Positions 45,218 to 49,549 of a stretch of 64,000 nucleotides of DNA are shown here, in pieces. The position numbers and the translations under genes were made by a program. Below the pieces are notes generated by a model, which did not search any database, was not told where the DNA came from, and saw nothing but the letters and a program-made list of their open reading frames with translations. Every line of letters starts with the position of its first letter. Within the stretch, counting starts at the first letter, position 1. Location of the stretch: positions 186,001 to 250,000 of the forward strand of contig CAJXKF010000004.1 in assembly GCA_913055695.1 (NCBI GenBank). Direction: 5' to 3'. The stretch comes from an uncultured Methylophaga sp. GTDB taxonomy: Bacteria; Pseudomonadota; Gammaproteobacteria; Nitrosococcales; Methylophagaceae.

Positions 45218-47611
45218 ATGCAGAGACGAACCGAATTACAGGTCAATGATCTTTATCAGCATTGTGACCCCGATAACTGGCAGTTTAATACCACCGCAGA
45301 CCTCGAAACGCTGCCCACCATCATCGGTCAGGACCGGGCCCTGAGTGCCATCGACTTCGGCGTCAACATCGATGCAGAGGGCTATAATCTCTTTATCATG
45401 GGGCCGGCCGGGGTCGGCAAGTACACCATGATCAAGCGCTTTCTTGACGAGCATTCCCGCCATCTGCCGCGTGCCAAAGACTGGGCCTATCTGAATAACT
45501 TTGCCGATCCGCAAAAGCCCTGGGCCGTCTCTTTACCCGCCGGTCAGGGAAGTCAGCTGAGACAGGATATTGAAACCATCATCGGCCATCTGGAAACGGA
45601 ACTGCCGCAGGCTTTTGACGATGAATATTACCGCGGCCGCATGCGTTCTCTGGAAGAAGCCGCCCGTAAACACCGGGTGAGATTATTCGGCACTTTGCAG
45701 ACGGAAGCTGACCGGAAAGGCGTGGTTCTGCTTCGAATGCAGGATGGCAGTTATGCCTTTGCTGCCCAGCGTGAGGGGCAGGCAATGACCTCGGAAGAGT
45801 TCGAGCAGCTACCGGCGCATGAGCAGGAAAAAACCGAAGACGCGATTGCGGACCTGCACGAAGAGCTCCAGCACACCCTGCTGGAACTGCGAGAGTGGGA
45901 GCGGGATAACTTCCGTAAACTGCAGGCACTCAATGATGAGGTCGCGCTGGAAGTTATCAGTAAACACATCAAGAAGCTTGAACGGGCTTATCCCAGCTCG
46001 ACTAAATTGCAGCTCTATTTCGAGGCGATGCTGAAAGACATTCGAGATAACGTCGATGCCTTCGTCAAGCAGGAAGCCACTACTAACGAGGAGGCGAGCA
46101 GCGAAGATAATCTGCTCAAACGCTATCAGATTAACCTTGTCGTCGATAATGCCCAGACTCAGGGGGCGCCGGTCATCTACGAAAATCTGCCGCATCACCA
46201 GACGTTGCTGGGCTGTGTTGAAAATATGGCGATGATGGGGGCCCTGGTCACCGATTTCAGCCTGATCAAGGCCGGTGCCGTGCACCGCGCCAATGGCGGC
46301 TATCTGATTGTTGATGCGGAACAGTTATTGATGCAGCCGTTTGGCTGGGAAGGGCTCAAACGGGCGTTGAAATCCCGTGAGGTCCGGTTTGATGCGCTGG
46401 AACGGATCTACAGCCTGGTGGCGACAGTATCGCTGGAACCGGAACCGATTCCGCTGGACTTGAAAGTGGTACTGCTGGGGGACCGGCACTTGTACTATCT
46501 GCTCTACGAACTGGACCCCGAGTTTGCAGGCCTGTTCAAGGTCGTGGCCGATTTTGAAGAGCATATGCCCCGCAACGCCGACAATGACATGCTGTTCGCG
46601 CGGATGATGGCGAGCGCGATTGATAAGGAAAACCTGCTGCATATGGAGCGGGCAGCGGTAGCCCGCGTCATCGAGCACAGTGCCCGCTCGATTGAGGAAA
46701 ACAGCAAGTTCTCCCTGCATCTCGGAGATATGACCGATCTGTTGCGGGAGGCATCCTACCTGGCCAAACAGACACAATCGAAATGGGTTGGCCGTGAACA
46801 CGTTCAGACAGCGATCAATATGCGTGAGCAGCGACTGGATCGGCTGCGCTCACAAATATACTCGCAGATTGAACGCCAGGTGATTGATATTGATGTGCAG
46901 GGCAATCAGGTGGGGCAGGTCAATGCACTATCAGTGCTCAGTATCGGTGGCTTCAGTTTTGCTCAGCCTTCCAGAGTCACAGCCAGTGCGCGTTTCGGCG
47001 ATGATAATATCATTGATATCGAACGCGAAGTGGAACTGGGCGGTGATATTCACAGTAAAGGCGTGCTGATCCTGAGTGGCTATCTGGGCAAGACCTATGC
47101 TGCGGATTCGCCTTTATCCATGTCCGCGAGTATTGTTTTCGAGCAGAGTTACGGTGAAGTCGATGGTGACAGCGCCACTGTCGCCGAGTTATGCGCTTTA
47201 TTGTCCTCGGTGGCCGGTGTCTCACTCAAACAGTCATTCGCCATCACCGGTTCGATGAATCAGCACGGTCATGTGCAGGCCATTGGCGGTGTCAATGAGA
47301 AAATTGAAGGTTTTTTTGATATCTGCAAAATGCGTGGTCTGACCGGCAAGCAGGGCGTGATCATTCCGGCTTCCAATGTGCAGCACCTGATGCTGCGCCA
47401 GGAAGTCATCGAGGCTGTGAGCAAAGACCAGTTTCATATTCATGCCATTCATCATGTAAACGATGCAATTAGTCTGTTATCCGGTCTGGATGCTGGTCAG
47501 CGCAATGACAAGGGCGAATATACCGCAAATAGTTTCAACGCGGCTGTCGCAGCCAGGTTGAAAAAGTGGACGGATCTCCATCGTCATGAAAAAGACAGTC
47601 AGCAGGATTAA
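45218..47611 (+). CDS. Lon-like ATP-dependent protease
   Basis: 797 residues of the LonB/COG1067 group. N-terminal Walker A GPAGVGKYTMI, then a long coiled-coil insertion (about 115-300). The AAA core follows (NGGYLIVDAEQLL as Walker B-like segment), and the C-terminal Ser-Lys protease domain has VDGDSATVAELCALLS (catalytic Ser) and GGVNEKIEGFF...KQGVIIPASN (Lys). The family is distinct from housekeeping Lon; it is cytosolic with unknown substrates. A single gene with its own promoter. Confidence 0.9.
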   Translation: MQRRTELQVNDLYQHCDPDNWQFNTTADLETLPTIIGQDRALSAIDFGVNIDAEGYNLFIMGPAGVGKYTMIKRFLDEHSRHLPRAKDWAYLNNFADPQKPWAVSLPAGQGSQLRQDIETIIGHLETELPQAFDDEYYRGRMRSLEEAARKHRVRLFGTLQTEADRKGVVLLRMQDGSYAFAAQREGQAMTSEEFEQLPAHEQEKTEDAIADLHEELQHTLLELREWERDNFRKLQALNDEVALEVISKHIKKLERAYPSSTKLQLYFEAMLKDIRDNVDAFVKQEATTNEEASSEDNLLKRYQINLVVDNAQTQGAPVIYENLPHHQTLLGCVENMAMMGALVTDFSLIKAGAVHRANGGYLIVDAEQLLMQPFGWEGLKRALKSREVRFDALERIYSLVATVSLEPEPIPLDLKVVLLGDRHLYYLLYELDPEFAGLFKVVADFEEHMPRNADNDMLFARMMASAIDKENLLHMERAAVARVIEHSARSIEENSKFSLHLGDMTDLLREASYLAKQTQSKWVGREHVQTAINMREQRLDRLRSQIYSQIERQVIDIDVQGNQVGQVNALSVLSIGGFSFAQPSRVTASARFGDDNIIDIEREVELGGDIHSKGVLILSGYLGKTYAADSPLSMSASIVFEQSYGEVDGDSATVAELCALLSSVAGVSLKQSFAITGSMNQHGHVQAIGGVNEKIEGFFDICKMRGLTGKQGVIIPASNVQHLMLRQEVIEAVSKDQFHIHAIHHVNDAISLLSGLDAGQRNDKGEYTANSFNAAVAARLKKWTDLHRHEKDSQQD

Positions 47612-47681: not shown

Positions 47682-48083
47682 ATGCGTGGATTCATTGTTC
47701 TTATAAGCAGTCTGTGTGCCGTGCAGGCGAGCGCCATGTCCCTGCCGCCGGTACCGACCGAACCCATCTATTTCGAACCACCGGTGGTTCATGCTGAGGC
47801 TGAAGTCAGGGCACTCAGTTGCTACGATTTGGATATGGCAATCAATCAGTTACATCCTTATCGCTATAGCTACAAGCCACCATATTACGAAGATGGCAGC
47901 AACAAACTGGCGACTGCGCTGGTGGTGTTTGACAGTGTGCCTTTGGTCGAAGGCTGGCTTGGATTGGGGTATCTCGGCTACTCAGCACTGGTCGGTGAAA
48001 AGGAAGATAGAAGACAGCTCCACGTTGACCAGCAGATCGCTTCCTTACAGCGTGTCAAAGCTGAAAAACACTGCTACGAATAA
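47682..48083 (+). CDS. Exported protein of unknown function
   Basis: 133 residues. A signal peptide (MRGFIVLISSLCAVQASA) is followed by a Pro-rich stretch (SLPPVPTEPIYFEPP), then SCYDLDMAINQLHPYRYSY, a hydrophobic segment (LVEGWLGLGYLGYSALVG) and a charged C terminus ending in Cys. Two mature Cys could form a disulfide. No family is recognised with certainty. The ATG follows CAGGAG. Confidence 0.7.
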   Translation: MRGFIVLISSLCAVQASAMSLPPVPTEPIYFEPPVVHAEAEVRALSCYDLDMAINQLHPYRYSYKPPYYEDGSNKLATALVVFDSVPLVEGWLGLGYLGYSALVGEKEDRRQLHVDQQIASLQRVKAEKHCYE

Positions 48084-48180
48084 GAGCTGATCAGGATCAA
48101 TACTGCGAGCTATTTTGTTGTTGCTTTGCTGACAACTCATGTAATATCAGGTTTGAGAACTACCCAGAGAGGTATGAGAA

Positions 48181-49428
48181 ATGAGTAGCACACTTGATAT
48201 TAAAACAAAGTGGTACGAAGCGAATTTAAAGACAGCACGTGAGAGCCGCAGCAAGTGGTATGAAGCCAATAATAAACCGGCTTCAAGCACTTCAGAGCCG
48301 TGGTATACCGCTAATAAACGCCCTGCTAAAGAAGTTGAAATTCCCTGGTACAAAGCCAATCTGGTTCAGCATCAGGAAACCAAGAACAAATGGTATGCAG
48401 CGAATCTGCAGCAGGCGGTTCAATCTGTCCGTGCTACCCGCAAATGGTATGAAGCTAATAAAAAGCCGTCCGAGGTAGAGCAACGCTGGCAACATTTCAG
48501 CGAAGAAATGTACAGCGATGTGAAAAAAGCCTGGATGCGTTTGAATCTGGAACAGGCAAGAGAGCGCCGCATCAAGTGGTATGATGCCAACAAGGACAAT
48601 ACACCGACCGATAAGCACTGGTATGAAATCAGTGATGAAGTCGTGACTGACACCAAGAAAAAATGGTGGCAGGCCAACCTTGAACAGGCACGTGTGTCAC
48701 GCCACAAATGGTATGAAGCCAATGTGCATCCGGATCCGCACGCCGAGCTCAAAAAACGCTGGCGGGAATCCAACCTGAGTTTGATTCGTACTCAGCGTGC
48801 CAAACAGAAGTACTTCTCTGAGAGCGCCAACCGGGCACATGAAAACCAGAAATGGTATGAAGCCAACCAGCGTCCTGCCAAAGTGGTTGAAACGCCCTGG
48901 TATGAAGCCAACCAGGTTGCGCATCAGCAAACCAAGAGCAAGTGGTACGAAGCAAATCTGCTGCAGGCGATTGCCAAGGTACGTGATCAACGCAAATGGT
49001 ATGAAGCCAATCTGGATAATACGCCGACAACCCGCCACTGGTATGACTTCAGAGAAGCCGGTGATACCGAATGGAAACTGGCCTTCCGTGAAGAAAACCT
49101 GAGAAAGGTTCGTGAAAAACACCGCAAGTGGTATGAAGCGAATCTGGATAATACGCCGACTGAAAAACACTGGTATGAAATCAGTGATGAAGTCGCTACC
49201 GACACCAAGAAAAAATGGTGGAAAGCCAATCTGGAACAGGCCCGTGTCAGCCATCACAAATGGTATGAAGCCAATATGCATCCGGACCCGCACCTGTCAC
49301 TGAAGAAAAAATGGTGGCAGGCCAACCTTGATCTGGTTCGTACTCAGAGAATCAAGCAGGACTGGTTCCGCCAGAATACGATAATTGCCCGTGAGGCACG
49401 TAAAAAATGGGATCAGTTTGAAGACTAG
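48181..49428 (+). CDS. KWYEAN tryptophan-rich hierarchical repeat protein
   Basis: 415 residues, no signal peptide or membrane helix, very rich in Trp (about 29), Lys, Glu, Asn and Arg. Nearly the whole chain is 14-18-residue units beginning WY/KWYEAN. Three units make a module of 44-49 residues. Eight modules are seen (41-87, 88-131, 132-175, 176-223, 224-271, 272-315, 316-359, 360-408). The first four repeat as the last four, an internal tandem duplication of ~184 residues. The third unit is helical and charged (NLEQARVSRHK), the first often holds Pro (NTPT, HPDPH). A helical solenoid is plausible. No function is recognised. ATG 48181 follows GAGAGG, and a terminator closes the gene. Confidence 0.8.
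   Translation: MSSTLDIKTKWYEANLKTARESRSKWYEANNKPASSTSEPWYTANKRPAKEVEIPWYKANLVQHQETKNKWYAANLQQAVQSVRATRKWYEANKKPSEVEQRWQHFSEEMYSDVKKAWMRLNLEQARERRIKWYDANKDNTPTDKHWYEISDEVVTDTKKKWWQANLEQARVSRHKWYEANVHPDPHAELKKRWRESNLSLIRTQRAKQKYFSESANRAHENQKWYEANQRPAKVVETPWYEANQVAHQQTKSKWYEANLLQAIAKVRDQRKWYEANLDNTPTTRHWYDFREAGDTEWKLAFREENLRKVREKHRKWYEANLDNTPTEKHWYEISDEVATDTKKKWWKANLEQARVSHHKWYEANMHPDPHLSLKKKWWQANLDLVRTQRIKQDWFRQNTIIAREARKKWDQFED
48301..49404 (+). repeat. Two tandem ~550-bp coding repeats
   Basis: Bases 48301-48849 and 48850-49404 encode homologous blocks of 183 and 185 residues with the same order of twelve units. The best-kept part is the NTPT-KHWYEISDEV-TDTKKKWW module, at 48574-48705 and 49126-49257. 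Codon-level divergence in other units suggests an old duplication. Confidence 0.8.
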
Positions 49429-49445: not shown

Positions 49446-49489
49446 AGGCCGCCAGTGGAGTTTTTCCGAACTTTGCTGGCGGCCTTTTT
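49446..49489 (+). terminator. Terminator after KWYEAN repeat gene
   Basis: AGGCCGCCAG (49446-49455) pairs with CTGGCGGCCT (49476-49485) around a 20-nt loop, followed by TTTTT. Confidence 0.88.
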
Positions 49490-49549
49490 GTGTCTGTTAG
49501 CATGACAAAAGCAGTGTGAGTCAGCAGTAAATCGAGGTTGGATAATTGT

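Follow-up and report, generated by a model that had tools for sequence, protein, structure and literature searches.

A tryptophan-rich repeat protein restricted to Methylophaga and its close relatives, a candidate multivalent docking scaffold

Methylophaga and closely related bacteria encode a tryptophan-rich repeat protein, here called the KWYEAN protein, whose repeat architecture is conserved and confined to one bacterial family. Our preferred reading, held tentatively and at somewhat less than an even chance, is that it is a lineage-specific cytoplasmic scaffold for multivalent docking. Its motifs may serve as docking sites, its binding would then be multivalent, and an assembly would be the product.

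Gene product and repeat architecture

The KWYEAN gene lies at positions 48181-49428 on the forward strand of the window, the stretch of 64,000 nucleotides analyzed here, with a stop codon just 5' of its start. The open reading frame gives exactly the 415 residues claimed in an earlier note on this DNA (50.8 kDa, pI 9.6). Tryptophan, put at about 7% in that note, accounts for 29 residues (7.0%), alongside 19 Tyr, a single Gly and no Cys. The protein is very hydrophilic (GRAVY -1.4) and basic, with a net charge of +20, and pI lies between 8.8 and 9.8 in 30 of the 30 tabulated family members. By inspection, the N-terminus MSSTLDIKTKWYEAN contains no hydrophobic stretch and no export signal, in agreement with the claim that export signal and membrane helix are both absent, and the protein appears cytoplasmic by sequence. 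The same inspection found no export signal of the kind that would place it with surface or choline-binding-type exported repeat proteins.

A composition of this kind could indicate a nucleic-acid-binding protein that coats RNA, single-stranded DNA or the nucleoid, with Trp and Tyr stacking on bases and Lys and Arg binding phosphate. The consistently basic pI and the net charge would fit, as would the Lys before each Trp and a conserved Arg in the spacer. The motif itself is charge-neutral, however, the chain has many acidic residues (60 D/E in 415), and stacking would not require the Glu, Ala and Asn that are conserved; we consider this reading rather unlikely. Low hydropathy, the near lack of Gly and Cys and the marine or haloalkaline hosts could also point to a LEA-like stress hydrophilin, an abundant soluble shield for other proteins under salt or drying. 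Yet 7% Trp combined with strict motif conservation is the opposite of LEA composition, and neither the promoter-like element nor the codon usage described below shows a sign of stress regulation, leaving this reading with a small probability.

The earlier description of about 26 units beginning with WY or KWYEAN is accurate as a loose pattern, with 27 aromatic anchors that are mostly W and in a few cases F or Y, but not as exact copies, since KWYEAN occurs only nine times. Exact WYEAN occurs ten times in the window's protein and the other units are variants. Seventeen WY dipeptides were observed compared to 1.3 expected. Anchors are mostly 14, 15, 17 or 18 residues apart, and the spacing of aromatic clusters has a coefficient of variation of 0.36 (lowest among 2000 shuffles, 0.51). 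Self-similarity peaks at shifts of 184, 15, 199 and 44. The chain opens with an N-terminal leader of two extra units anchored at W11 and W26 (residues 1-40, positions 48181-48300 on the forward strand, ending before the start of half 1 at 48301). It continues with two halves of four three-unit modules each, half 1 spanning residues 41-223 (48301-48849, forward strand) and half 2 residues 224-408 (48850-49404, forward strand). The halves align end to end with 61% identity and one internal one-residue gap, and the alignment score of 607 compares with 7 +/- 17 (maximum 81) for shuffles. Modules 1-4 thus match modules 5-8 as had been proposed. The W-to-W spacing in half 2, 15-15-18 / 14-15-15 / 14-15-15 / 17-17-15, yields four three-unit modules and agrees with the proposed total of eight. 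This spacing string is nearly unchanged in 20 full-length members of the genus and is therefore not a product of chance.

Distribution and orphan status

Whole-genome searches identified the KWYEAN gene in 22 of the 23 further genomes from the genus. In the family Methylophagaceae, 53 of 57 genomes carry it, most of them at the same syntenic locus, and it was found in none of six genomes of the sister family. A profile search of 365 further gammaproteobacterial genomes, all from outside the family, gave no relative. Scanning about 85,000 species genomes for the motif returned 50 loci; all that are named to genus or family belong to Methylophaga or Piscirickettsiaceae/Methylophagaceae, and the remaining loci come from gammaproteobacterial or pseudomonadotal metagenome assemblies, nearly all of them in the same gene context. 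This distribution assigns the window to Methylophaga. As far as these genome searches reach, the protein appears limited to Methylophaga and close kin within a single family. No homolog was detected in phage, viral and plasmid collections and the chromosomal synteny is constant, which led us to reject a phage- or plasmid-borne protein.

Four of the 57 family genomes gave no match (G003, G077, G024 and G025). A contig ends at the locus in G003 and G077, so absence is not demonstrated in these two. In G024, a streamlined genome of 1.1 Mb rated 100% complete, coq7 is joined directly to carbonic anhydrase, and in G025 other genes adjoin bamE; these two genomes truly lack the gene at this locus. 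Two genus members have problem copies: that of G016 contains a stretch of N, and that of G020 has a broken frame. The latter, the M. muralis copy L140 (G020:C8:25300-26900), is divided over two reading frames at about residue 300, due to either a sequencing error or a recent loss. The window's own genome (G000), rated 99.98% complete, gave no match to models of ribosomal protein L2 and EF-Tu; its relatives do carry L2, and this gap is probably left-out or collapsed sequence.

The earlier note recognized no family for this protein, and our own sequence and profile searches of Pfam, NCBIfam, PHROGs and PDB likewise gave nothing credible, only chance-level matches. A match to a characterized family, which that note had listed as evidence against its description, did not appear. 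The best PHROG match was a holin (E 0.004 over 42 residues), Pfam matches were scattered over 1-5 of 30 members under unrelated names, and Rfam gave no match. Judged by these searches, KWYEAN is an orphan family. In the window's genome the WYEAN codon pattern is present ten times, matching the count for the KWYEAN protein itself, and hence no other protein encoded there has the exact motif; in relatives, all places among the matches listed are inside the KWYEAN gene. We found no work on the protein in the open-access literature, where "WYEAN" yields unrelated papers only, and the gene is not singled out in the accessible portion of a proteome paper on M. thiooxydans (PMC6548844).

Conservation and evolution of the repeats

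Pairwise dN/dS of the KWYEAN gene lies between 0.01 and 0.06 for pairs inside the genus and reaches at most 0.09 in a further member of the family, a range like that of LonB, RecN, carbonic anhydrase and BamE in the same kind of species pairs. The equal synonymous and non-synonymous change that the earlier note named as a sign of an untranslated frame is thus not observed, and the substitution pattern argues for a real gene under strong purifying selection. Selection as strict as that on housekeeping neighbors supports a scaffold role. Orphan status alone might suggest a non-functional open repeat expansion, but such low dN/dS values, retention by 53 of the 57 genomes of the family, usually at a single locus, and a conserved promoter-like element and ribosome-binding site plus a terminator make this scarcely credible.

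Conservation is concentrated in the motif and not in the spacers, which further supports docking by the motif. Among 20 genus members, mean column entropy is 0.11 bits for W, 0.35 for Y, 0.32 for N, 0.51 for the preceding K and 0.61 for A, and reaches 1.3-1.4 bits at the most variable spacer positions. The conserved positions of a unit are K(-1), W(0), Y(+1), A(+3) and N(+4) and, to a lesser degree, R(+9). Across 44 sequences, Y, A and N follow W in most units and the spacing classes of 14, 15, 17, 18 and 19 persist. Repeat number differs among relatives by whole modules, from about 11 to 25 motifs (202-427 aa). Variation by modules with persistent spacing classes is what an array of equivalent sites would show, and it also favors the scaffold. 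Identity between the two halves is 53-68% in most species but 80-88% in lineages L012, L019 and L021, where the higher values indicate occasional homogenization within the gene.

Only five internal gap positions occur in 415 columns among 20 species, making the spacing nearly free of indels. Such strictness is the chief argument against a loose linker and hints at an ordered rod or a fixed register. Such an ordered, elongated assembly would be a phased helical rod or fiber, with Trp and Tyr stacked in register and the chain structured only as an oligomer. Near-invariant spacing classes and the scarcity of indels favor it, as does a conservation periodicity that peaks at 98 degrees per residue, near the value for an alpha helix (P = 0.09, 20 genus members). 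The fit of this periodicity to a helix is only suggestive, and its P value counts against the docking scaffold as well.

Predicted structure

Regular solenoids are usually predicted well. AlphaFold2 gave a mean pLDDT of 55.5 and a pTM of 0.16 with the whole family (30 sequences), and a pLDDT of 57 and a pTM of 0.21 for half 2 with a repeat-aware alignment containing both halves of 14 species in register. Both runs produced separate helices without packing. These low-confidence models make the solenoid that the earlier note entertained unlikely, and on the charge-hydropathy plot the protein falls well within the disordered range, with a mean hydropathy of 0.34 compared to a boundary of 0.43. 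Products of neighboring genes have hydropathies of 0.427 or above and are nearly all unlike the KWYEAN protein on this plot. The alpha-solenoid families TPR, Sel1, HAT, ARM and HEAT were rejected because no repeat profile was found in 30 members using Pfam, and a packed superhelical fold was rejected on the isolated helices of the two monomer models. The scaffold role that the same note thought plausible fared better and is our own best reading, with its function deduced indirectly; low hydropathy together with predicted helices that do not pack is part of the case for it.

The long predicted helices span two to three units each (residues 56-91, 188-228, 240-277 and 372-414), which would suit the ordered rod, and a fold formed only in an oligomer would escape AlphaFold on a monomer. 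Nevertheless, pLDDT stays at 55-57 and pTM at 0.16-0.21 even with the repeat-aware alignment, no helix has a significant hydrophobic moment, and Pro-containing breaks separate the units. We regard a rod or fiber as unlikely, though worth keeping in view.

The hydrophobic moments of the nine predicted helices do not exceed those of shuffles (P 0.24-0.71), and amphipathic membrane or gas-vesicle helix repeats were rejected on this basis. A peripheral membrane protein with amphipathic helices, similar to synuclein, perilipin or GvpC, would be compatible with a 15-residue period like that of extended amphipathic repeats and with the interface-loving nature of W, Y and K, but since all nine moments lie within the shuffled range we see very little chance of it. 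GvpC, synuclein and the LEA 11-mer are short-period helical amphipathic repeats in a hydrophilic chain, whereas the KWYEAN protein has a base unit of 15 residues, no hydrophobic moment and 7% Trp. Sel1-like and HAT repeats contain W-Y-x-x-A style motifs superficially like KWYEAN; here, in contrast, the unit is 15 residues and not 34-38, there is no Gly turn, and none of 30 members gave a Pfam match to any such family.

A candidate docking scaffold and its analogs

As a docking scaffold, the KWYEAN protein would be a soluble, basic and mostly non-globular chain in which a short, helix-forming motif, K-W-Y-x-A-N-(L), recurs about 27 times. The sticky patch would consist of W, Y, A and N, the charged or polar residues K/R/E/Q/T would act as spacers, and Pro-containing caps (xTPTxxH, HPDPH and RPAK) would break the chain into units of 14-19 residues grouped in threes. 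Every motif may bind one and the same partner surface, or another copy of the protein, and one molecule could bridge many partners into a condensate, lattice or fiber. The lack of any other protein with the exact WYEAN motif in the window's genome is consistent with this proposal.

A precedent that supports it is PYCO1 of the diatom pyrenoid, in which repeated KWSP stickers bind Rubisco as helices and Trp is critical (PMC10288592). Both proteins are tandem-repeat chains with a repeated K-W motif, which in PYCO1 is helical when bound. PYCO1 differs in its KWSPR/Q motif, its six unevenly spaced stickers, its eukaryotic origin and its Rubisco partner. It may be the closest working analog, at most one that works alike, and we claim no sequence relationship. 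EPYC1 and the N-terminal repeats of CsoS2 likewise use multivalent short helical motifs to bridge a multimeric enzyme, but their motifs are different, and Rubisco is absent from most complete gene-carrying Methylophaga genomes. The KWYEAN protein shares with these linkers a multivalent, short helical Trp motif in a non-globular chain, a resemblance in how it might work and not in membership. RuBisCO_large was not found in the window's genome or in most complete genus members with the KWYEAN gene, and was present in G024 and G025, both of which lack the gene. This co-occurrence argues that Rubisco is not the partner, and a Rubisco linker of the EPYC1/PYCO1/CsoS2 type was rejected.

Several observations weigh against the scaffold. 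No partner was found for it, and two near-complete relatives, G024 and G025, do without the gene. Codon usage is a further point. Raw codon adaptation to ribosomal genes ranked KWYEAN second of 33 local open reading frames (two genomes), but after correction for amino-acid composition the z score was 3.2 in one genome (ribosomal mean 3.7) and a weak 0.9 in the second (ribosomal mean 3.2). We draw no argument for high expression from codon usage, since the excess shrank to moderate in one case and weak in the other, and these corrected values do little to establish the abundance expected of a bulk scaffold.

Expression signals and gene neighborhood

The approximately 100 bp 5' of the gene are poorly conserved apart from a promoter-like element and the ribosome-binding site. 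The promoter-like element TTGTTG-N18-TAATATC is located at 48118-48148 on the forward strand and has the family consensus cTTGT-N19-GTANTATC, aligned over 48 upstream regions, some of them from the same genomes. A generic sigma-70 consensus scan did not list it. Searching the window's genome for a regulon gave one other, weaker match, and reversed-pattern controls were equally frequent; a regulon was rejected, and the element looks like the gene's own promoter. The Shine-Dalgarno sequence AGAGGT (48167-48172, forward strand) is kept as GAGGT(A) across the family. Much of the genus also retains the sequence around this site, CTACCCAGAGAGGTA at 48160-48175, in which a short UACC/GGUA hairpin might form, making translational control possible. 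A strong Rho-independent terminator with an 18-pair stem and a T-rich tail follows the gene at 49446-49493 on the forward strand.

The order of the locus is coq7, PilZ, LonB, a small secreted protein, the repeat gene, a metallo-beta-lactamase-fold protein, carbonic anhydrase, bamE, fur, recN and nadK. It is largely constant, with LonB, the metallo-beta-lactamase-fold protein and carbonic anhydrase coming and going. The LonB-like protease (AAA_32/LonC_helical; 45218-47611) is upstream in many but not all relatives, and its history at this locus includes both gain and loss. Next comes the small secreted two-Cys protein (133 aa; 47682-48083, forward strand), which in nearly all cases precedes the repeat gene by about 100 bp. 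It matched no Pfam or NCBIfam model and belongs to an unnamed periplasmic family. Weak relatives occur elsewhere in Gammaproteobacteria, some after htpG or by other genes, with no repeat protein nearby, and locus L084 keeps the repeat gene with the small secreted protein missing. Because the two genes are separable in this way we do not treat them as one system. A functional pair was rejected on the same observations, and the pairing appears positional, not proven functional.

Significance

One more specific possibility, which we think improbable, is a non-carboxysomal scaffold that gathers a methylotroph enzyme or complex into a membraneless or fibrous compartment through about 27 register-fixed KWYEAN helices. 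If true, most Methylophagaceae would share a previously unknown compartment. If the protein is a scaffold at all, Trp-sticker linkers of lattices or condensates would have arisen in ordinary heterotrophic bacteria as well as around Rubisco. The regular motif and the natural versions with about 11-25 motifs would offer a clean system for studying sticker number and spacing. Tryptophan is the costliest amino acid to make, and this gene devotes 7% of its residues to it while tolerating hardly any change. Nearly the whole family of these marine methylotrophs keeps a strongly selected protein for which there is no family model.
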